64,000 nucleotides of DNA, taken from the NCBI RefSeq assembly GCF_035599575.1, contig NZ_CP141179.1:2108001-2172000 (forward strand). Reading direction: 5' to 3'. Under the pieces are notes generated by a model. That model did not search any database. It saw only the letters and a program-made list of their open reading frames with translations, and was not told the DNA's origin. Numbering within the stretch: position 1 is the stretch's first letter; each line of letters begins with the position of its first letter. The DNA is from Roseovarius sp. Pro17. GTDB lineage: Bacteria > Pseudomonadota > Alphaproteobacteria > Rhodobacterales > Rhodobacteraceae. Made by a program: the position numbers and the translations under genes. Positions 2-25,507 of the stretch are shown piece after piece.

Positions 2-3000
2 TCGCGTTTCTTTTCCCGAACCGGCGACACCGACCCGGAAGAGAGCGCGGTCGAGGCGCCTACATCGCCGCAACATGAGGCATGGGCCGATAACTCAACC
101 CGCTCGGTCCATAGCTTAGCCAAAAACGCTCTCAAGGAGCCACATTGCCTAATCGTTACCGGTTATCAGGATTTCCTCTCCTCCCTGACGATTTTGCTCG
201 AAACATTGGAAGACCTTAACGAACGCCCGCAGGGCAGCATTCGTATCGTCTTCGGCTCCAACACAGAAACACGGCAGGTGTTGGGTGGCGGCGGCCGCTC
301 GGTCGCCGAAGAAGCACGCCAGCATTTTCTTGGCGCGAGAGGCTTTTCTGTTGTCGATTTGGCCGACCTTCGAGCGGTTCTCGCGATGGATGCCATCGAG
401 CGCGGCGTTGTCCAATTCCGCGTCTATGATCCGGCTTTGGCCAAAACCATACTGGGGCGGAGGCCAACGACGCTTCACGCCAAGCTCTTTGTGGGCGAGC
501 AAACGGCGCTCTCGGGAAGCGCAAACTTCTCGATCAACGGTCTGCGCCGCAATCTCGAATTCACTGACGATGCCAATGACTGGCCCGTCCTTGCTATGGC
601 GCGGCGCACGGCGGCAGAGCAATTCTGGGACATGGGCCGCGACTGGAACGAAACGGCGATGGAAATCCTGCGGTCACTCATCCGGCTCGTCACACCTGAA
701 GAAGGCGTCGCGCGAGCGGTTCATGAAGCGACCAGCTTCACGCCTTGGAGAGTTGCCGGGAAAACAAGTGCCGGTCGACCGCCGCAACCCTTCCAAGCCG
801 ATCTTGTCTATGAAGCGGCTGGAACTGTCTATGAGCATGGCTTTGCCTTCGTCGAAGCGCCCACTGGTGCCGGAAAGACCGACATCGGAAAACACCTCGC
901 TACAGTGCTGCCCGTCAGTCATGGGCAGGCGGTCTTTTCCTGGGGCGAGCGCGCCGATCAGCAGCGGCTTGGCTCGCTCGCCCTGATACCGGCCAGTGTC
1001 TTGAAGAACTGGACAACAAATGCGCCAGCGAACTTCAAGCCTATCAAGCACAGTCATTTGTCACGCCGGGGAAAGGAAGAAGCTGCTGAACTCGAGGAAA
1101 TCAACCGGGCCGTCCGCTCATCGGCGTCAATGATCGTTGATGAAAGTCACCGACTAAGCTCCCGGTATCTCACCCCTTCGGCGCGTTCGCTCGTCTTCGA
1201 GCGCAGCCCGGCGATTTGGACTGCTTGTTTGTCCGCAACTCTCATGGGAAATCAGGGCCTCGACGGCCTGCTCGCCTTCCATGAAAAGCGCGCCTCAATT
1301 TATGTTCCCCCGGTCATAACAGACCAGATCAATCAACACATGGCGAAGGTCCGAGAGCGCGGAGAGCTCATTCACCACCTCGATCAGGTGAATCGTCGGA
1401 TCGAAGCGCAGAGTGTGCAGGACGATTTGTTTGACAGCGCTGACACGCTCAAGAACGAAGTCGAAAACCTCGAAAGCTCAATTGAAACCCGAGGTCTGCA
1501 AATCAGCGCACTCCAGGCAGGCCTGGCAGACGCACTCGCGCCATATGTGGTCCGGCGCCAGCGCGCCTGTATAGGTGAAAGCCCTGATAGAACGACAGGC
1601 GCCTTCGTCTATCCGGCAATCAGAAGCCACCGAGAGGATACGGAACTGAACGAGCAGCAAAGGCAGCTCATCGATCGGATCAAGACGCTGGCCGAGTGCA
1701 TCACCACAGGGATCACCCTCGTTTCGGCCGATCCTCAGCGTGCGGGACAAACCGAGGTAAGGTTCCATGACAAGTCGCGCATCCACATACGGAACTTCCT
1801 CGCGCTATTGCGCGCGTCAGTGACCTTTGCTCGCGAGGAATGGACGCGGGAGCGCGACAGCGACGCCGATCAGAGGGGACGCGCTTCAATCGGCGAGAAC
1901 TTGCGGCGGGCAGAGAAACAGAACACTCGTCAGATACCGGTTCCGGATGGCGCACTGCCGGAAGAACTGAGCACTGAAACTGAAAGCAGCCAAACACCGA
2001 TCTGTGATCGGATCACTCGGCTTTTGAACCACCCCAGCCTCGACAGCATTGATGAGGCTCGGGCTGATGTCATGCGTGGCATCCTTAAAAAACACGGTCA
2101 CGCCATCTTTCTTGCCGAACGAGTCGGCGTGCTTGAGATCTACGCCAAACTCCTCGCAGGGCAACGCGGCCGGGGGCCCGAGGTCTTTGTTGTCGCTCCC
2201 GGAGCCCGGATCAAGTCCGGAAAAAAACTACACCATGTCCGATCCGGCGCGGAAGCACAGGAATATTTTGGCATTGACGGCAAGCACGTTGATCCGCTGA
2301 AGTCGCGCACGATGTTTTTGACATTTCAGATGGCCGAAGGGATTAACCTCCAAATCGCGTCCGCCCTTGGGATCATCGGCGTCACCTCCGATGTGAAGAG
2401 CCTGATTCAAGGCCTGGGACGGATCGACCGCATCGACAGCCCTAACTCACGTATTCACTACTACACCTTCGATCTTCCCGGTCTGGTTCTGTCGTCCGAT
2501 CATAAGGCACGCGCACGCGTTGCGAGCATCGCATTATTGTCGGGGGTCGGCGCGGATGATCTGCCTTCGGAATTGGTCGAGTTCGCAGCCGGCGATTTGA
2601 CCGATCTGGTGCTGGACCAGATCAAGAAACCTCGCATTCTTCGATCCGGAAATTATTTTGACCTGCTGGAAGATCTTCGACGCTCGGTCCCTCCGGAGGT
2701 CCTTGAGCGCGTCGAGTCTGCAAAGCCGCGTGGCCTTTGGGGCGCCGACCTTTGCCTGCTTTCTTCGCGTGAACCAGCCACAATCCTGCTTCTGGGCGGC
2801 CGCACAGGAAGCCCGCAAGATCCAACCGTCTTGCCGCCCCGCCTACTCGCAGTGCGTGACGTCGCTGGGCGCGCAGAGATCGTGGGCGATCAGACCGAGG
2901 CAGCCCGCCTCCTTGGCGGTGCCTATGCGGAAACGCGGCGTCGGGGCATGCAGGATCACAGGCCGGACCTGACAGAGATGTCTGCGACGTTGAGCCGACT

Positions 3001-3421
3001 TGGCAGCACGCTTGCGCACCTGACGCATTGGGATATCCGTCCGGCACGAACAGTATCCCTTCTTGCGTCACTCGCAAACTTCCTGACAGGGCAGTCCCTT
3101 GTCGATGCTGGCCAGGAGCTTTTCGGAACGCTCACCCTGCCAGCTTTGGAAAAGTTGGCCGAGTCTTGGGCTCACGAGCTTGATGTTTTCTGGATCGAAG
3201 CAAAAGAAACCGTGAGCCAGAGAAGCGCATCTGGCGGCGAAATTCCAGACTATCTTGGGATCGACGCTATCTATAGGGCATTCCAAGAGCAGCCCGACGA
3301 TGTGCGCACCGCCGTCAATGAGAGGATGAACGAGCTCGCTGACCGATGCAGAGCGCTTTCCGAAGGACAGCCGATAGACATCCTCAGCCGGATGTCCGTC
3401 ATCTTTGAGGCCAAGCAGTAA
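2..3421 (+). CDS. PLD-type nuclease / superfamily 2 helicase fusion, 5' end outside the window
   Basis: The frame is open from base 2, so the true start lies upstream; at least 1139 codons are present and the TTG at 194 is only an internal codon. Counting from the first full codon, residues 45-190 look like a phospholipase-D-type domain, with an HAK motif near 159 followed by GSANFS near 172. A Walker A (APTGAGKT, 286-293), a DESH box (380-383), SATL motif III and a late motif VI-like QGLGRIDRID (803-812) mark a two-lobe SNF2-like helicase. A charged insertion follows motif III, and about 320 C-terminal residues have no recognised domain. PLD nuclease plus helicase is a common architecture in bacterial DNA-defence loci. 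Its partners, if any, are to the left and unseen. The family assignment is sound; the defence role is inferred from architecture and island location. Confidence 0.8.
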   Translation, partial: SRFFSRTGDTDPEESAVEAPTSPQHEAWADNSTRSVHSLAKNALKEPHCLIVTGYQDFLSSLTILLETLEDLNERPQGSIRIVFGSNTETRQVLGGGGRSVAEEARQHFLGARGFSVVDLADLRAVLAMDAIERGVVQFRVYDPALAKTILGRRPTTLHAKLFVGEQTALSGSANFSINGLRRNLEFTDDANDWPVLAMARRTAAEQFWDMGRDWNETAMEILRSLIRLVTPEEGVARAVHEATSFTPWRVAGKTSAGRPPQPFQADLVYEAAGTVYEHGFAFVEAPTGAGKTDIGKHLATVLPVSHGQAVFSWGERADQQRLGSLALIPASVLKNWTTNAPANFKPIKHSHLSRRGKEEAAELEEINRAVRSSASMIVDESHRLSSRYLTPSARSLVFERSPAIWTACLSATLMGNQGLDGLLAFHEKRASIYVPPVITDQINQHMAKVRERGELIHHLDQVNRRIEAQSVQDDLFDSADTLKNEVENLESSIETRGLQISALQAGLADALAPYVVRRQRACIGESPDRTTGAFVYPAIRSHREDTELNEQQRQLIDRIKTLAECITTGITLVSADPQRAGQTEVRFHDKSRIHIRNFLALLRASVTFAREEWTRERDSDADQRGRASIGENLRRAEKQNTRQIPVPDGALPEELSTETESSQTPICDRITRLLNHPSLDSIDEARADVMRGILKKHGHAIFLAERVGVLEIYAKLLAGQRGRGPEVFVVAPGARIKSGKKLHHVRSGAEAQEYFGIDGKHVDPLKSRTMFLTFQMAEGINLQIASALGIIGVTSDVKSLIQGLGRIDRIDSPNSRIHYYTFDLPGLVLSSDHKARARVASIALLSGVGADDLPSELVEFAAGDLTDLVLDQIKKPRILRSGNYFDLLEDLRRSVPPEVLERVESAKPRGLWGADLCLLSSREPATILLLGGRTGSPQDPTVLPPRLLAVRDVAGRAEIVGDQTEAARLLGGAYAETRRRGMQDHRPDLTEMSATLSRLGSTLAHLTHWDIRPARTVSLLASLANFLTGQSLVDAGQELFGTLTLPALEKLAESWAHELDVFWIEAKETVSQRSASGGEIPDYLGIDAIYRAFQEQPDDVRTAVNERMNELADRCRALSEGQPIDILSRMSVIFEAKQ

Positions 3422-9992: not shown

Positions 9993-11942
9993 TCAACCAA
10001 ACCGATTTTCCTTCATGCCCAAGACCAACTTATCCTGCACCTTACTCGCAGCCTCAGCTTTCGTAATCTTGCCGTTCTTGTTGATGTCAAGGCGAGCGTT
10101 TTGCGCGTACGCCTTGGTTCCTTTGGCAAACAAAACATGGCTGTCCAGTTTTCCAACAGCCGCCGGCCAGAGAACAGCCATGTATAGATCGCTCAAGGCG
10201 GGCATTGGCCGTCCGTTCACCTGCATCTTGAAATATGCTTCCACTATGCCGAGTTGATCGATAGCTGACATAGCAGCCAGTTTGGCAGAGGTTGTTCCTA
10301 GGTGCGTCGCGGTTGCTGGCATGAACTGTATTAGCCCTATAGCCCCGCTGCCCGCCGCGTTTTCTATGCTCGGTGAGAAGGACTCACCGGTTTCGAAAGC
10401 CATAACCGCCATCAAGTGATTGGGATCGCATTTTATTCTAGAGGCGATACCAATCACCTTATCGTTAAAGGCCTGACCATGCTTGTTTCGGGTGATCTTC
10501 CCAAAGGCTAGTGACTCTCCCGCCGCCGCAGCGGGTGGTATCGGTGAAGGTGTTGGCCCAGTTCCGGTCAGCGCACCGGACGGCCCGGAGTGTCCAGACC
10601 CGCCGCTGACGGCGTTGCCAAAGTCAAACGCAGGCAGCGCCATACCCAGCTCCGCCGCTGTATCTGCACCGACGATGCCATCATCGGCCTCCGGTCCGAA
10701 AATACGGGTCTGGAAGTCGACCACCGCGTTGAAGGTCCCCGGCCCGAAATCGCCATCTACCTTCAGGTGCGCGTTATTTTTGCGGTTGAGTGCTTTTTGA
10801 AACTCTTCCACGATCGGACCGTAAGAGCCAAATCTTAGGAGAACGGTTTTGCCCACACACTTCGTTCGGATCATCATCTGCGCTTCTTCTGCATCAAAAA
10901 GCACATACTGCGCTTCTTTCTGTCGGCCGAGCTTGTCGGCGAAAGGCGTGATAAACGTTTTATACGGCCCGACCTCCGAGCCTAGTTTGCCCTTTTTCAC
11001 GGTGCCTGCAATCACTTGGCAACCAGCCGAAGAAAATTTTGCATCCGCAGGGTTGCCATCTACGCCCATATGAAAGGCACAGTGAATATTGTCGCCTGCA
11101 ATGCTCCCCACGTGCCAGCGGTCGGTCAAATCATAATCGTCGTCATCGCCTGTTCTCTGAATAGTTATTGCGCAAGCCTGCTGTAATGCCCAATGCCCGC
11201 TGGAACCTTCGCTGCGCTTGTGCCATCCGGCGGTATAACGGCTATAGCGACCGCGCCCTATTTGGTTCACCCCTCGCCCATCGTTGGAAATCTTAGACAT
11301 TACGATCGGACCATATGGTACCGTGGAGCCGGGAAAGAGGGCGAGCCCATCGCCGGGTTTCCAATGGCCAATGCAGCACTTCATGACTTGATAATCTACT
11401 GGGGTCATGACGATCTCGTGTTGCGCCCCCATGCCTGTGCCCGAAAACTCCACCGGTCGGCAACCGCGTAGACCAAAGATTGTGATTCGGCCAACGTCGA
11501 TGGGAAACAGAGAACGCCGCCACAGAGCAATAAGGTGGGCCTCGGTCAGGACTAGCTGGCCCGAAGGCTCCAGAACAGGAGATTGCGCTTTCACTGAAGA
11601 ATCCACGTTTGTATCTGCAACCAGTGGAGTTGCGATACTCTCTTCAGCGGTCTGGGCGAAAATATCCTCTATGGCCTTTTTAATTGCCGACAGCGGCCCG
11701 TTGGCCAGACTGTCAAGGTTCACCTTGTGCCCGTCAATCTTCTCGCGGATGCGCGCCAAATTAAAGGCCAGTTCTCCCAGAGTATGTAACCCCAGGTCGA
11801 TACGCAGATCGTCGATTTCTCCAGCAATGTCCTCCAGTCGCTGCATCTCCGCTGAATCGCCTGCGGCCTGAGCTTTGGCAAACGGAGCCTCTAGAGAGCG
11901 ACGCAGCACCAACAACTCCTGTTCATATTGCTCGTAACCCAT
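9993..11942 (-). CDS. Multidomain peptidoglycan-active protein (SLT lysozyme-like, PG-binding, EF-hand-like)
   Basis: 649 aa from the ATG at 11942, which has TGGAGG 7 nt upstream. Visible parts in order: a coiled-coil-like helical N-terminus (1-100); a middle region (125-335) with H287/H291 and FSSAGCQV (C308), which recalls the His...S-x-G-C signature of L,D-transpeptidase-like enzymes; a peptidoglycan_binding_1 repeat (about 370-432, VDGDFGPGTFNAV); a Gly/Pro/Ser-rich linker (445-475); a lytic-transglycosylase-type domain (about 495-600) with FETGESF (Glu517) and GAIGLIQFMPATA; and an EF-hand-like loop DINKNGKITKAE at 619-630. There is no signal peptide despite cell-wall domains, so export by a specialised system or lysis-linked release is likely. 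The lipoprotein gene 28 bp upstream may encode a partner or protective protein. Confidence 0.75.
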   Translation of the reverse strand: MGYEQYEQELLVLRRSLEAPFAKAQAAGDSAEMQRLEDIAGEIDDLRIDLGLHTLGELAFNLARIREKIDGHKVNLDSLANGPLSAIKKAIEDIFAQTAEESIATPLVADTNVDSSVKAQSPVLEPSGQLVLTEAHLIALWRRSLFPIDVGRITIFGLRGCRPVEFSGTGMGAQHEIVMTPVDYQVMKCCIGHWKPGDGLALFPGSTVPYGPIVMSKISNDGRGVNQIGRGRYSRYTAGWHKRSEGSSGHWALQQACAITIQRTGDDDDYDLTDRWHVGSIAGDNIHCAFHMGVDGNPADAKFSSAGCQVIAGTVKKGKLGSEVGPYKTFITPFADKLGRQKEAQYVLFDAEEAQMMIRTKCVGKTVLLRFGSYGPIVEEFQKALNRKNNAHLKVDGDFGPGTFNAVVDFQTRIFGPEADDGIVGADTAAELGMALPAFDFGNAVSGGSGHSGPSGALTGTGPTPSPIPPAAAAGESLAFGKITRNKHGQAFNDKVIGIASRIKCDPNHLMAVMAFETGESFSPSIENAAGSGAIGLIQFMPATATHLGTTSAKLAAMSAIDQLGIVEAYFKMQVNGRPMPALSDLYMAVLWPAAVGKLDSHVLFAKGTKAYAQNARLDINKNGKITKAEAASKVQDKLVLGMKENRFG

Positions 11943-11970
11943 GCAAACCTCCAATTTTGGAATAATCAGC

Positions 11971-19042: not shown

Positions 19043-22000
19043 TCAAAATGTATCACGTAGCTCGCGCTGCCTCACTTCGCTGTCTTCACGTTCGGCGTCT
19101 CGCTCCCAGCTCTCGGCGATCCGGGACAGCAGTGAATTGGTCCTAGGCCACAGTTCAGCAATTTCCGCCCACCGGCGGTAATCGGCAGCGAGTTCTCGCT
19201 CGAGCATACCACCATCCCGCATTCCCCGCACCGTTACACCGCGCATATTAAAGCGCTCTGTCTGAAGGCCACGCTCGACATTAGAGCTCGAGAGTCGCTC
19301 GATTTCGTCACGTACAAATCGGTGCGGCCAGCCACCATCCAAGTCGTCGTTGGGAGAATGTGCGAGGACATTGCCTAAGGATAGGTCGGTACTGACTTGC
19401 CGATCATGCTCAAGAGCAAGCTGCTGCATGCGATCTATCCAATCTGTCAACTTGGATGAATCTGGCTCCCTATCGACGAAACCCGGTAAAATCGAGAAGC
19501 CCTTAAGAAGTTTATACGACTGCCGCCACTCGGAACGCTTCGTGTCAGATGCCTCTACGTCATCGTCGTCCTTTGAAGGTGTTTCCTCGCGGTACACGTT
19601 GCGAACTATTTCGTGGTAGAAATCTGCGTTGGAAGCCATCAAACGGTGGAGGCGTAGCGGCCGCTTGGAGTGCTCAATTAAAGCTAGAAGTGCATATTCA
19701 TGCGTCGCTATATCGGAATCCGCTAGGTCCCGTCGGTCAAGCTCCTCGAAAACCTTCTTGATTTTGTAATCAAGGTTCGCAGAGCTTCGTTCAGAATCCA
19801 TCTTGTTGATTTCATGGACGCTTCGATTGAGTAAAGCGAGTAACAAGCATGATGGGACTTCCTTAAGGCGATTGTGGCCGGTCTCGAGAGCAGCTATCGG
19901 TCGGCCCTGTCGAGCCAATCGGAGCATCAGGCGTAACAGAATTGGCCGCTCCGCTTTAGTCCAGAGAGGCTGTAATTCCTGCCAATATGAATTTTCAACT
20001 GTTTCGCCAAACTTTGATGCTGCGTCCCAAATTTGAGGTTCAGAAGGCAACGCACACAGTAAACGAGAGATGCTTACATCGTTAACACCCGGCTGATAAA
20101 GTTCCTCGATCAAAGAAATCGAAGTCGCGTCTCCTGCCATTTCGCGAAAAACTCTCAAGAGTGACCGTGAATGACCATCGCCCGCGTCGTCTGCAAAACT
20201 GTCTTTAACAAGTTGAGCTAAGAAAGCCGAAGAAAGGTCCGCGTCAATAAGAGCCTCAAGAACATGATAGGTGTTTCGAACACTTGAAAGAAGCTCAATT
20301 ACCTTTGGCGAACCTTCAGAAGCCAACTTGGAAACTGCTTCGCTGCGGAGGAGTTTTTGCTGATCCTCGTCATCTAAATCCCAGTAGTCATCAAACAGGT
20401 CGATAATCTGTAATACTGGATCCTGAGGGGTAAACTCAGCAGAAATCTTTGCCATTCTTTCAAGATTTTCCCCTTTAAGGGCCCATTCGGTATATCCGAA
20501 TTTTTGATGATGCTTGACCTCTTTGCTTAGGCGTTCCCAAAGTTGATCGCGCTCAGGGTTTTCTGCACCTCGCAGCGTTTCCTCCAGGGCATCCATGGCC
20601 CCTCCCAAAGCCTCATCGGGAAACCGGAACATCATTCGGATCAGCTCCAGCATTCTTAAGGGATCTCCAGATGCCAATTCAATTGCGCGCCCACTGACAT
20701 GTTGTTGCGCCTCCCAGTAATCGGCATTAGTGACCCCACGAGGGCTTTCGACGTCAAAGCCGCGCAAGCGCGGCTCATCAGTGCCACTTGTTGAGGCCTG
20801 CTCGTCAGGAAGTAGACGAAGCAACAGCGTCCAGCCTGTTTCAGGAAACTCTTTGAGAATTTCTTCCATTACTGCGATACGAAGCGACAGGGGGGCAAAC
20901 GTTGACGGCAGCCATGGCAAGAAGATGTCGGCTAGGCTCGCAGCTGGGCGGTTCGCAAGATTACCACCTGGATCGATCTGATCGAGCCCGGCCAGTATAA
21001 GACAAGCGCGTCTGAACAGCTTCGGGTCCCAAGCGAGGCGCTCGAGTGCCCATAGCACATTGGTATGTTCTGCGCTGGGAAAGGCGAAGCCCTGTACTTC
21101 CTTAAAGATTGGGCGGATCGCCTCCCCGTCGCCCTCGAGCATGTGCTCGAGGGCTGAGAGAAAAGGCTCAGGTGCTGCCTCCGCCAGCATGGGGAGGTTC
21201 CCTGCGAGACTTGTCAACAGTCTATGGTTGCTCTTCAGTCCAGGGAGAGCGTTCACCACTTCGTTGGCAAATACTTGTCCAGCGCCTGCTGCTACTACAA
21301 GCCCCGCCTGCTCCTCCCAAACCGCAGTCAGCAGAAGCGTTGCCGCCAAGCCTTCTCGGAGCCACTCACTGTGCCGGTCCGGAGGCCTTCGCATGTAGGC
21401 GGGTTCTTCTGGGTCAGGTTCGGGGTCAATATGCCCGAATACCTTTCCTAGAATTGGCCTTAGTTGGTCCAGTATGTCTTGTCCAATTAGATGCCCGGAA
21501 TGGATGAATGCATCCAGTGGTGCGCGAACCTTATAGATACTCTGCTCACAGGCGATGGGTGACCCGAGGCCGGCAGTGAACGGCCGGATAGCCCTCTCAA
21601 ATGCAGCATAATTCGGCGTTCCTGCGATGGCGCTCATAATTTCTTGATCGTGAGCATTGTTTGAATCCCAACTGCCTGCAAGAAATGCCGGGAGCAGAAC
21701 AGCTGCGTTGTTATACCATTCCGGCAGTTCAGACATGCCGCCAGGAATTTGACGTTCAAGCGCCGCCAAGCTTCCGCCGCAGCCTCGCGCATAGATTTGT
21801 GCCTCTCGTTCAGACAGGTTCATTTTCTCCAGCGCTTTCGTGAGGGCGAAGCTGGTTTGACGTCCAAGCAGCTGACCTTTGCCACCGCGCTGCAAACCGT
21901 CAAGCGGCACGATGGTTGGGCCTGACGCAGAGAATTTTCCCGGCGAACGTGCCGCATCGCCGCGTAGTAGGAATGCAAGGTTCTGCTTCGCGACCAAGCC

Positions 22001-22786
22001 ACGTCCGCCGGCCTCGGTGTCGATAACAAGCGTTCGAGCCTCGAGAAATTTACGGACCTTCTCATCAGAGCTTCGAATCGCCGCAACTGCAAAGGCGATG
22101 ACTTCGTCCGGGGCGTCACCTATCAGAGACATCTGATCCGGCGGCCCCATAAGCATGCCGAGCACTTGTTCAACCAAACTTTCGCGCTCAGTCGTCAGGA
22201 CCTCCTCAATCAAAGGTGGAGCAAATCTGTTGGCGAAGTCGTTCCAGAATTCATCGGTGCTTCGAACAGCGTCGACCGGGGCTAGCTTGAGCGTGTTTCG
22301 GGCATGCCAAGCTGAAACCGCTGGTGCCTCAGCGAGCCAGCGTTCTAAGCTGGCGCCATCTATCACGATCACCTCTTTCCAAGACTGCTCTTTCTTTCGG
22401 ATTTCCACCCAATTCTCGAGCTTCCAGTCCTTTTTCGTTGAGTCCCAAGTGAATGGTGTGACCAAGACAAGCGTGACATCCTTCTGGTCGGCGGGAGATA
22501 TTTCGCCACTACGCTTATTGAAGTCCTTGATAGCTTTCCCTTTGTAGTCAATCTCGGTTCCAATTTCCCAAATCGACTTACCTTTTGGGATGAAGAGCGC
22601 GTCGCCGTCGCTCGCGAGAATTCCGTCTAGCCCACGCGTTCTACCTTTATCTCCACTTGGAAAACGGATGGAACGTATGTCACTCGCAGTCGCGCTAATC
22701 AGGTCCGCGACAAGTTCAGGAAGTTCGGGCTCTGCAGAGTTGGTTCGCCCCCAAGCATCGAGATGCGCTGCCGTGATCCACTTCAT
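19043..22786 (-). CDS. 1247-aa protein: nuclease-like N-terminus, STAND-like middle, helical C-terminus
   Basis: Residues 1-130 resemble a restriction-like (PD-(D/E)xK) fold. RIRFPSGD-type start (IRSIRFPSGDKG), TRGLDGIL, and KSIWEIGTEIDYKGKAIKDF place D, E and K in a plausible catalytic order. Residues 190-370 read like a STAND/NACHT region: SLIGDAPDEVIAFAVAAI where a P-loop would be (no GK[ST] seen), TLVIDTEAGG as a Walker B-like strand, and YARGCGGSLAALERQIP resembling the GxP motif. The remaining 850 residues are an alpha-helical repeat solenoid. This architecture is shared by large sensor-nuclease defence proteins such as Avs, but the P-loop is degenerate and I cannot name the family. The gene is monocistronic on the minus strand, bounded by an IS3 scrap and a TniQ gene. 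Confidence 0.6.
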   Translation of the reverse strand: MKWITAAHLDAWGRTNSAEPELPELVADLISATASDIRSIRFPSGDKGRTRGLDGILASDGDALFIPKGKSIWEIGTEIDYKGKAIKDFNKRSGEISPADQKDVTLVLVTPFTWDSTKKDWKLENWVEIRKKEQSWKEVIVIDGASLERWLAEAPAVSAWHARNTLKLAPVDAVRSTDEFWNDFANRFAPPLIEEVLTTERESLVEQVLGMLMGPPDQMSLIGDAPDEVIAFAVAAIRSSDEKVRKFLEARTLVIDTEAGGRGLVAKQNLAFLLRGDAARSPGKFSASGPTIVPLDGLQRGGKGQLLGRQTSFALTKALEKMNLSEREAQIYARGCGGSLAALERQIPGGMSELPEWYNNAAVLLPAFLAGSWDSNNAHDQEIMSAIAGTPNYAAFERAIRPFTAGLGSPIACEQSIYKVRAPLDAFIHSGHLIGQDILDQLRPILGKVFGHIDPEPDPEEPAYMRRPPDRHSEWLREGLAATLLLTAVWEEQAGLVVAAGAGQVFANEVVNALPGLKSNHRLLTSLAGNLPMLAEAAPEPFLSALEHMLEGDGEAIRPIFKEVQGFAFPSAEHTNVLWALERLAWDPKLFRRACLILAGLDQIDPGGNLANRPAASLADIFLPWLPSTFAPLSLRIAVMEEILKEFPETGWTLLLRLLPDEQASTSGTDEPRLRGFDVESPRGVTNADYWEAQQHVSGRAIELASGDPLRMLELIRMMFRFPDEALGGAMDALEETLRGAENPERDQLWERLSKEVKHHQKFGYTEWALKGENLERMAKISAEFTPQDPVLQIIDLFDDYWDLDDEDQQKLLRSEAVSKLASEGSPKVIELLSSVRNTYHVLEALIDADLSSAFLAQLVKDSFADDAGDGHSRSLLRVFREMAGDATSISLIEELYQPGVNDVSISRLLCALPSEPQIWDAASKFGETVENSYWQELQPLWTKAERPILLRLMLRLARQGRPIAALETGHNRLKEVPSCLLLALLNRSVHEINKMDSERSSANLDYKIKKVFEELDRRDLADSDIATHEYALLALIEHSKRPLRLHRLMASNADFYHEIVRNVYREETPSKDDDDVEASDTKRSEWRQSYKLLKGFSILPGFVDREPDSSKLTDWIDRMQQLALEHDRQVSTDLSLGNVLAHSPNDDLDGGWPHRFVRDEIERLSSSNVERGLQTERFNMRGVTVRGMRDGGMLERELAADYRRWAEIAELWPRTNSLLSRIAESWERDAEREDSEVRQRELRDTF

Positions 22787-23354: not shown

Positions 23355-23369
23355 GTGCTGAAAATCCCT

Positions 23370-25235
23370 ATGTATAGGCCGCTGCCGCTCCGCCCTACAC
23401 GTGCCCCTCGCGAGACCATTCCGTCTTTCCTTTCAAGGTTGGCGGAAGTGAACGGTCTTGGCGCCAAGGATTTTGCGCGGGATATGGCGATATCCTTCAA
23501 ACGGCTTCTGAACCTTGAAGACGAGCCCTTGGAGGCGCTTGCCGGTTGCGCCGGTCTTGATGGAGACGCTGTGGAGACACTGGTCTCTTGGACCGGGCGC
23601 CCAATCGGAGATGTGCGAATGGAGTTTCGCGCCGAGGCTTTCGTATCTCGCAGCCTCCGAAACCCGACCGTGAGGGGGTGTCCAGTGTGTTTGCGGGAGG
23701 ATGTCGAAGCCTACGATGACCCGCCGCTGGAGGCCATGGTCATGCGCGGGGATTGGCAGTTTCGCGAAGTTGTCCTGTGCCTGCGCCATCATCATCCCCT
23801 GGTGCCATTGTGGACTGCCGCGCATCCAAGCGATCGGCACGACATCGGCGCGCGTCTCAACGAGATTGCTCATGACCTCATGGCGGGTAAGCTTGATCAA
23901 CAAATACAATCCCCGACCCCCTATGATTTCTGGCTGGACGGTCGCCTCGAGAACGGGCGCGATGCCACTTGGCTCGCGCAGCATGATCTTTATTCAGCCG
24001 CTAGTTTCTGCAGGATCCTTGGACGGGAACTGCTCCGTCTCGATTCCCCCGCCGACGTGGGCGAAATCAGCCTGGAAATGCGGTCCCGCGCAAGAGGCTT
24101 CGAAGTAGCAAGCAAGGGCGAAGCGAGCATTCTCGCGGCGCTTAAAGAACTCATGCAATTTGCGATCAGTCGCAACCTGGAGATCACAGGGGCGTTGGGC
24201 GACCTTTTCTACAGAAGGAAGTCCAGTGTATCTTTTGATCTGGATTGTTTTGCGCCATTTCATCGCATCCTGCGACAGTTCGCAGTAGAAAACTGGCCGA
24301 TCGAAACAGGGGGATTCGTATACGGGAAACCGTTCCCAGAGCGCATTCTGCACTCAGTCAGGACGGCGTCGACGGAAACAGGCTTAGGACGGGACTTGTT
24401 AGGCCAACTGCTAGTCGAAGTGGGCGCAGTTGATCCGAAGGACAACCGACCCGAAGCATGGAAGACCTTCCCGGTTAAGGAATATGCACTCTTCCTCTCG
24501 GAAGTCCCGTCTTGGCTTGGGTCCCTCGAGATCAGACAGGCAATGGGGGCGTCGCGCAGAGAGTTTAATACGCTCGTGCAAGACCAGGTACTGACGCCCC
24601 GCACTCGGCTCCCGAACGTGAAGAAAATCTGGTGCCCTTCAGATGGCATGGAACTTGTTGCCAATCTTAAGGCAGCAGCGTCACCCATCACCAAGGAGGA
24701 CGACAACTGGGAGAAGCTGCAGGACGCCAAGAACCGTTCCGGGATCTCGGTGGGCGCGCTCATCGGAGCCATCCGGTCAGGAGATCTGCAGGTCGGCGCG
24801 AGAGACGGCCAGACCGGCTACCAGAGCATCTGCGTCCTCAAGCAGGAGGTCGATCGGCTGGCGAGGCCCACGGGCACGCCAAGGCCGGAGGACTGCCTCC
24901 CGGCGTCTAGTTTCGAGCGGTCCATAGGGCTCAGAACCAAGGGCCGATTCCTTGCGCTCGTACGCAAGGGACACACACCAGCCACGCGGATGCGTCATCC
25001 GACGACCGGAGCCTGGCAATATTTCATGACCGAGGCCGACATCGCCGCATTCCATCACCGATTCATGACGCTCTCATCCATGGCGAATGAGTTTGGCAGC
25101 CACCGGCACACCTATCTGACCACCCTACGATTCGCCGACGTGGCCCCCTTCGCGCCCGACGGCGAAGACTACGGGCACCTCTATCTGCGTACAGACATAG
25201 AGCCAGTTCTGCGCCGTCATCGGCTCATCACCTGA
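23370..25235 (+). CDS. tniQ: TniQ-family transposition target protein
   Basis: 621 aa from the ATG at 23370 (a GTG at 23355 is possible; neither has a good ribosome site). The TniQ N-terminus is visible as RETIPSFLSRLAEVNGL and FARDMAISFKRLLNLED. A zinc-ribbon follows: CPVCLRED, then VVLCLRHHHPLVPLW, giving a C-x2-C...C-x2-H pattern. The long C-terminal region is of the TnsD/TniQ type, including winged-helix-like repeats (SVGALIGAIRSGDLQ). In Tn7-like and Tn5053-like transposons this protein recognises the target site and recruits the transposition ATPase. No tniB/tnsC or intact tniA/tnsB is present; only a transposase scrap at 6781-7240 remains. It lies between the island and tRNA-Trp, facing the tRNA. 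Confidence 0.85.
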   Translation: MYRPLPLRPTRAPRETIPSFLSRLAEVNGLGAKDFARDMAISFKRLLNLEDEPLEALAGCAGLDGDAVETLVSWTGRPIGDVRMEFRAEAFVSRSLRNPTVRGCPVCLREDVEAYDDPPLEAMVMRGDWQFREVVLCLRHHHPLVPLWTAAHPSDRHDIGARLNEIAHDLMAGKLDQQIQSPTPYDFWLDGRLENGRDATWLAQHDLYSAASFCRILGRELLRLDSPADVGEISLEMRSRARGFEVASKGEASILAALKELMQFAISRNLEITGALGDLFYRRKSSVSFDLDCFAPFHRILRQFAVENWPIETGGFVYGKPFPERILHSVRTASTETGLGRDLLGQLLVEVGAVDPKDNRPEAWKTFPVKEYALFLSEVPSWLGSLEIRQAMGASRREFNTLVQDQVLTPRTRLPNVKKIWCPSDGMELVANLKAAASPITKEDDNWEKLQDAKNRSGISVGALIGAIRSGDLQVGARDGQTGYQSICVLKQEVDRLARPTGTPRPEDCLPASSFERSIGLRTKGRFLALVRKGHTPATRMRHPTTGAWQYFMTEADIAAFHHRFMTLSSMANEFGSHRHTYLTTLRFADVAPFAPDGEDYGHLYLRTDIEPVLRRHRLIT

Positions 25236-25431
25236 GAACCACCTTGCAATCCAGCGAACATTTGCACCACATAACGTTGCGAAAACAACCAGTTACATTC
25301 CGATACCGCCGTTCAGACGGACGCTAGAAGCGCGTTATTTCGTCCATAGTGCGTGAAATGTCTTGACAGGGGGTATGCAAGAAAACGCCGTTTCGTGCAA
25401 GCTTATGCCCCATTGGCAGTATCGGTGGAAA

Positions 25432-25507
25432 TGGCAGGGGCAGCAGGGGTCGAACCCGCGACCTACGGTTTTGGAGACCGTCGCTCTACCAGCTGAGCTA
25501 TACCCCT
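25432..25507 (-). tRNA. trnW: tRNA-Trp (CCA)
   Basis: A 76-nt cloverleaf read on the minus strand. The acceptor stem AGGGGTA pairs with TGCCCCT, the D-arm is AGCTCAGCTGGTAGAGC, the anticodon loop is CTCCAAA (CCA), the T-arm is CGCGGGTTCGAACCCC, and the 3' CCA is encoded. In Rhodobacteraceae this gene usually precedes secE-nusG; here the sequence on its 3' side is the tniQ end of the island, 196 bp away. Accessory DNA therefore appears to have inserted or rearranged downstream of it. Confidence 0.95.

Follow-up and report, generated by a model that had tools for sequence, protein, structure and literature searches.

A candidate nuclease-armed, inactive-STAND sensor of Roseovarius sp. Pro17 and its relationship to PD-Lambda-4_A

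Can a receptor of the STAND type do its work without a nucleotide site? The question is raised by one gene in a 64,000-nucleotide stretch of Roseovarius sp. Pro17 (contig NZ_CP141179.1, positions 2,108,001 to 2,172,000; the whole stretch is referred to as the window), the product of which has no P-loop where one would be expected. Receptors of the STAND/NLR kind generally depend on nucleotide exchange for firing, and in active STAND proteins it is the middle domain that switches by this exchange. From sequence comparisons we put at about 70% the probability that the window protein is a nuclease-armed, nucleotide-independent (inactive-STAND) phage sensor, in a P-loop-less sister clade of PD-Lambda-4_A, the large subunit of an anti-phage system. 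A widespread family that keeps its nuclease but has no nucleotide site is a natural system in which to ask what the nucleoside triphosphatase (NTPase) is for. As an Escherichia coli homologue is found mostly in one element together with a described anti-phage system, the idea is testable at once. The parts of the gene, in window coordinates, are:

19043..22786, minus strand: the protein gene, 1247 amino acids (aa); PD-(D/E)xK-like domain, P-loop-less STAND-like region and long C-terminal region, with PD-Lambda-4_A profile homology along its length
22292..22786, minus strand: nuclease-like N-terminal domain, approximately residues 1-165, from conservation and alignment with the GGID..FQxK stretch of PD-Lambda-4_A
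22625..22627, minus strand: codon of the invariant D54, matching the Asp of GGID in PD-Lambda-4_A
22565..22567, minus strand: codon of E74, likewise invariant (within WExG, or within E-x-K in 13 relatives), opposite the Q of Q-x-K in PD-Lambda-4_A
22535..22537, minus strand: codon of K84, the migrated lysine, from the alignment rows
21437..22219, minus strand: STAND-like region, approximately residues 190-450, from profile alignment only
22091..22123, minus strand: site of the missing P-loop, IGDAPDEVIAF, from profile alignment, conservation and dN/dS (the ratio of nonsynonymous to synonymous substitution rates)
21758..21778, minus strand: GGSLAAL motif, which the profile alignment places close to GNARVALA of PD-Lambda-4_A
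19046..21436, minus strand: residues 451-1247, the long C-terminal region, presumably a sensor made of helical repeats, from conservation and dN/dS
19196..19249, minus strand: C-terminal NMRG...GG..ER motif, residues 1180-1197, from conservation

The interval that the initial annotation gave for the open reading frame (ORF) is exact and its strand is minus; the plus strand of the interval is full of stops. The two motifs it had singled out lie at residues 222-232 (IGDAPDEVIAF) and 337-343 (GGSLAAL). It had also likened the protein to Avs sensors, in which a nuclease comes first, a STAND-like domain second and a long repeat sensor last. The domain order is the same, but the P-loop of Avs is active and the window family has none, and we treat the likeness as analogy only.

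Homology with PD-Lambda-4_A and the missing P-loop

Pfam gave only sub-threshold matches to the window protein, with no helix-turn-helix among them, and NCBIfam gave none. The sole pointer to the 850-residue helical solenoid suggested in the initial annotation is one of these sub-threshold matches, to ERAP1_C (E 0.014). A single weak PADLOC match, to PD-Lambda-4_A, covers residues 536-646 only (E 1e-4, 18.1 bits), and BLAST-level likeness to PD-Lambda-4_A is confined to approximately residues 531-853. Profile comparison with hhalign gave a probability of 99.4 over 1070 aligned columns (E 5.3e-21, 52 family rows against 6 PD-Lambda-4_A-like rows); with another set of PD-Lambda-4_A-like rows the probability was 99.0 over 1000 columns (E 3.2e-18). 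Diverse family members also have weak PADLOC matches to PD-Lambda-4_A at E ≤ 0.1 (23/37 with one model, 9/37 with the other). The PD-Lambda-4_A loci were taken from genomes of the phylum, 8 of 398 of which had matches at E ≤ 1e-5, with locus L016 reaching 2559 bits.

A protein search found at least 294 relatives at E ≤ 0.001 (7992 candidates scored), most of them about 1245 aa long among the matches listed, and the best 120 carry no Pfam domains. A related branch with an N-terminal XRE helix-turn-helix has at least 618 relatives at the same threshold; the two sets may overlap. The counts for listed family proteins given below refer to the best 120 matches from each.

In both profile alignments G223-I230 lie opposite GLSGVGKT of PD-Lambda-4_A, with the Walker lysine opposite V229, and R275 lies opposite the aspartate of what is presumed to be the Walker B strand. 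Among the matches listed, a P-loop is present at the aligned site in none of 240 P-loop-less family proteins, whereas GxxxxGK[ST] is found within residues 200-300 in all 120 PD-Lambda-4_A relatives, although these are 69-99% identical to the query and so not a broad sample. The P-loop is kept at more distant PD-Lambda-4_A-like loci (L017, L018, L022, L028, L034, L107 and L108). A P-loop elsewhere in the family proteins was considered and rejected: GK[ST] strings, of which a loose pattern picked up 16 in 135 proteins and a strict one 6 in 240, are scattered and non-conserved, and none is at the site. The site has conserved residues of its own, F232 in 135/135 aligned rows and E228 in 118/135, both also in 120/120 XRE-branch proteins among the matches listed. 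In a tree of 40 family and 10 P-loop rows (quick method, SH-aLRT support, that is, a Shimodaira-Hasegawa-like approximate likelihood-ratio test), a single branch with support 100 separates the two kinds of protein; the midpoint root serves for drawing only and several branches are long.

What had been noticed as a degenerate P-loop in one protein is thus an absence across the whole family, and not a local mutation. The case for homology to PD-Lambda-4_A and for absence of the motif is strong, and judged by sequence the family is a distinct P-loop-less sister clade of the P-loop-bearing PD-Lambda-4_A. The initial annotation had offered a nucleotide-independent relative or a new family, and both descriptions apply; independence from nucleotide is suggested by the missing motif. 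The family spans Bacteroidota, Actinomycetota and Pseudomonadota, and the P-loop-less state is thus old and kept. Taking a P-loop as the ancestral condition of STAND proteins, the family probably lost it, rather than never having had one.

PD-Lambda-4_A (PADLOC PDLC03991/PDLC03990) shares with the window family its length, the co-linear order of nuclease, STAND-like and long C-terminal parts, and profile homology over most of that length. It differs in having the P-loop and Q-x-K, where the window family has no P-loop and most of its members have E-x-G and a lysine eight residues further on; further differences of the family are the NMRG..GG..ER motif, a partner gene B that was not found, and its place in a separate clade. 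Review PMC10952713 credits the PD-lambda-4 system to Vassallo et al. 2022 and places it under P-loop NTPases; we did not find the term PD-lambda-4 in the PMC9519451 main text. Inactive STAND domains have been proposed as invader sensors in MoxR-vWA ternary systems and in BREX BrxB/PglW/PglZ, according to PMC7159879, PMC8195603 and PMC12839542. As described, such components are like the predicted middle domain of the window protein, a STAND-type NTPase with eroded Walker motifs, proposed as an invader sensor beside an effector, but they belong to multi-gene systems or other fusions, whereas the window protein is a single polypeptide with its own PD-(D/E)xK nuclease and sensor-like C-terminus. 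Loss of Walker A, which marks inactive STAND domains, is seen in the window family; the STAND/AAA+ fold of the middle region is assigned by homology only. The literature covered, which excludes most subscription papers and bioRxiv preprints, contains the inactive-STAND concept and no apparent description of the window family.

The nuclease site, selection and the proposed function

The suggestion of a nuclease-type N-terminus is supported by two invariant acidic residues and a migrating lysine. D54 and E74 are present in all 132 aligned rows with letters at these positions (the remaining 3 of 135 are gapped), and in both profile alignments D54 corresponds to the Asp of GGID, and E74 and G76 to the Q and K of Q-x-K. 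A lysine is always found at position 76 or 84 (132/132 rows): position 76 is lysine, giving E-x-K, in 13 rows, and position 84 is lysine in 121. K84 is present in all 119 rows without K76, while 11 of the 13 K76 rows are without K84 and 2 have both. The window protein has its lysine at the migrated place, K84. On a tree of 120 proteins (the best 120 of at least 294 relatives), built without the columns scored, the lysine state changed at least three times, and in the XRE branch D, E and K84 are kept in 120/120 proteins among the matches listed. Migration of the lysine is known for PD-(D/E)xK enzymes, and the exchange between K76 and K84 is a migration of this kind, which argues for a working active site. 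By its residues the nuclease looks active.

Selection was estimated from one gene pair, the window gene and that of Yoonia vestfoldensis, the closest named relative (78% identical). The overall dN/dS of 0.120 indicates purifying selection. By segment the ratio is 0.057 for residues 1-170, 0.100 for 171-450 and 0.219 for 451-900, and no dS estimate was obtainable for residues 901-1247. The lowest value of the segments measured, 0.023, is at residues 215-262, around the P-loop site. Conservation in blocks of 50 residues is highest at 501-600 (0.70-0.71); blocks 1-50 and 1151-1200 both reach 0.68, and the minimum is at 801-900 (0.35-0.42). We take the variable part of the C-terminal region as the likely sensor.

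These values also bear on the idea that the gene is a decaying relic. The P-loop is missing, some relatives are split (genome G131, locus L038), and in E. coli the family gene often carries an IS3 interruption. The window gene is, however, a full-length ORF, as are most listed relatives at their length of about 1245 aa, and it is under purifying selection that is strongest, among the segments measured, at the P-loop site itself; because of this selection and length we rule out a pseudogene, which has become scarcely credible.

We propose that the rest of the protein would hold the N-terminal PD-(D/E)xK nuclease idle, that the variable C-terminal region would sense a phage or other invader, and that the middle domain, working without ATP, may serve as a scaffold or offer a surface for contacts or a ligand. 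After sensing, oligomerisation or a change of shape would allow the nuclease to cut DNA, with abortive defence as the most likely outcome. A defence role is likely, and for the family as a whole we consider a sensor-nuclease that acts against phages or plasmids independently of nucleotide to be the most probable identity; independence from ATP is what we infer from the missing motif, and nuclease activity, the sensor role of the C-terminus and an abortive outcome would go with it. An active-looking nuclease without a P-loop, fused in one branch to an XRE helix-turn-helix, would also suit a new kind of restriction factor, one that recognises a feature of DNA directly and cuts invading DNA without a triggered switch or an abortive outcome. 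We regard this as unlikely, as the helix-turn-helix was not found in the window protein, and its size and likeness to PD-Lambda-4_A favour a regulated sensor.

Distribution, neighbours and adjacency to PD-Lambda-4

The family is rare and patchy across the genomes sampled. Matches, some of them fragments, were found in 12 of 385 genomes of the class, 3 of 390 of the order and 10 of 349 of the phylum, the genome of the window being counted each time, and none of 11 other same-genus genomes listed in the order survey has the family gene. A scan of genome contigs with a single query sequence gave one locus, and phage records gave one partial, unannotated match.

Restriction genes, type I restriction-modification, AbiEi/AbiEii and SIR2 are seen in family contexts. 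From 23 matching plasmid records 14 were taken, of which L036 and L039 have no annotation at the locus, leaving 12 to compare with 12 other stretches of the same plasmids; stretches L031 and L033 end at the end of the record. A named restriction, Abi or SIR2 gene occurs at 6/12 loci (L027, L030, L034, L035, L038 and L040) and in 1/12 controls (L098), a one-sided p of 0.034 that becomes 0.15 if three related AbiE loci are counted as one. Names were scored by eye after the tables had been seen, excluding toxin-antitoxin genes, lone methyltransferases and PDDEXK-named genes; the last occur, unscored, at one locus and one control of the same plasmid. The 127 neighbour proteins of 18 genome loci matched 149 PADLOC families at E ≤ 1e-10, against 35 for 136 proteins of 16 control stretches (two stretches did not exist and one ORF was dropped). 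These tallies count families and not genes, are inflated by several models per protein, and include many helicase-like matches among the controls. By annotation an AbiEi/AbiEii pair adjoins an XRE-branch gene at plasmid loci L034, L035 and L040, and apparently also at genome loci L042 and L063, placed by gene position only; each AbiE model matched 2 of the 127 neighbour proteins.

Enrichment for defence genes is present on plasmids but modest. No conserved operon was seen, and homologues are not found mainly in conserved non-defence operons. Several plasmid copies do lie near partition or TniB/Mu-type transposition genes, as they might if the protein served DNA repair or the maintenance of mobile elements. 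Given that no conserved partner gene was seen, that the distribution is patchy and that defence neighbours recur, such a role seems quite improbable.

Several observations weigh against the sensor-nuclease proposal. The defence enrichment is modest at best; one control, L097, holds three DNA methyltransferases that were not scored; and the Pfam tally of neighbours includes ordinary families such as kinases and transporters, with some loci lying amid ordinary genes. Sequence searches of the PDB gave weak, unrelated-looking matches or none, and no convincing relative. No PD-Lambda-4_B was found in the window or at 33 family loci (tblastn over the window and 38 loci, in which only the source locus L016 matched). 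Finally, proteins of the XRE branch have TE/TD near the aligned Walker B strand, so that a loss of Walker B is in doubt for part of the family.

Some family genes adjoin PD-Lambda-4_A itself. A scan of viral contigs gave 10 loci, two of which have near-identical family genes divergent beside PD-Lambda-4_A. The A19 strain of E. coli has a PD-Lambda-4_B-like gene followed by PD-Lambda-4_A and then, after 467 bp, by the divergent family gene, an integrase and ssrA (L127:8001-18401, beside ssrA; also L117). The A19 PD-Lambda-4_A is 72% identical to that of L016 and has the P-loop, and the B-like gene is 66% identical to B; the family gene, WP_000871158.1 (annotated hypothetical), is 37% identical to the window protein and has no P-loop. 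Among 5426 E. coli genomes, 204 have a match to the family gene, which spans 80% or more of the gene in 125 of them and only 197 bases in some, and 151 match PD-Lambda-4_A (131 over at least 80%). The 10.4 kb two-gene unit is covered to at least 80% in 109 genomes, where independence predicts about 3; it is one element spread by descent. On Rhizobium plasmids L028 and L034 an intact family gene lies in tandem 63 and 53 bp upstream of a PD-Lambda-4_A-like P-loop gene, and on a third, L108, a family fragment precedes the P-loop gene by 113 bp by annotation or 53 bp by longest ORF. At Rhizobium locus L107 (5657-10846) a HEPN/Toprim-associated gene lies 54 bp upstream of the PD-Lambda-4_A-like gene, beside Piwi and CBASS genes, and in Rhizobium the position before the P-loop gene seems open to exchange. 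L107 and L108 were found later, through the P-loop gene.

Plants have paired NLR receptors, and the adjacency allows a similar arrangement, in which the P-loop-less protein would be a regulator, decoy or sensor partner of PD-Lambda-4_A, and solo copies would be derived or have a distant partner. The P-loops of the partners are confirmed, and the two lineages show two different arrangements, divergent in E. coli and tandem in Rhizobium. However, the genome of the window has no PD-Lambda-4_A match, such a neighbour is found at only 2 of the 33 family loci scanned (L028 and L034; several loci end near the gene), and some E. coli genomes have a truncated family gene with integrase but without PD-Lambda-4_A, or the reverse. 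The HEPN/Toprim gene takes the same place at L107, and the E. coli link reflects descent of a single element. We therefore hold the pairing to be a tentative possibility. Extended, and equally doubtful, it would mean that bacteria have NLR-like receptor pairs, a P-loop-less nuclease receptor beside a P-loop-bearing PD-Lambda-4_A paralogue, one sensing and one switching; that the PD-lambda-4 of the E. coli ssrA element is half of a larger system; and that solo copies, such as that of the window, are receptors turned nucleotide-independent.

Surroundings of the window gene

The window gene is a solo copy, described in the initial annotation as standing alone between insertion sequence (IS) debris and tniQ. 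TniQ and IS transposase neighbours are confirmed; for the smaller IS3-like and ABC-ATPase fragments beside the gene, the identification is by eye. To the right of the gene are:

23355..25235, plus strand: tniQ, the divergent neighbour (PF06527, 8.1e-22)
25432..25507, minus strand: tRNA-Trp, the edge of an apparent island

In the genome of the window, nusG is about 122 kb from the tRNA-Trp that adjoins tniQ. Four relatives have tRNA-Trp in the stretch compared. In two of them, L071 and L074, a nusG-like gene is at most about 2 kb away from it (gene names assigned by eye), and in L072 and L075 other genes follow tRNA-Trp. The left-hand neighbour ORF 9993-11954 is absent from 19/19 other genus members, and the P450 on the right has a close homologue in most of them. 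Together these observations suggest an apparent island downstream of tRNA-Trp. Formation of the island by duplication of the tRNA end was rejected: the tRNA-Trp end has no second match in the window when 21 bases are searched with up to 3 mismatches, nor in the genome when 20 bases are searched with up to 2. With tniQ beside tRNA-Trp (23355-25507) and nusG distant, the locus might be a tRNA-targeted Tn7-like insertion. Elsewhere in the window, ORF 194-3421 (1075 aa) has weak PADLOC matches to the DpdK, DrmC and DinG models, and is possibly a second defence gene of the island.

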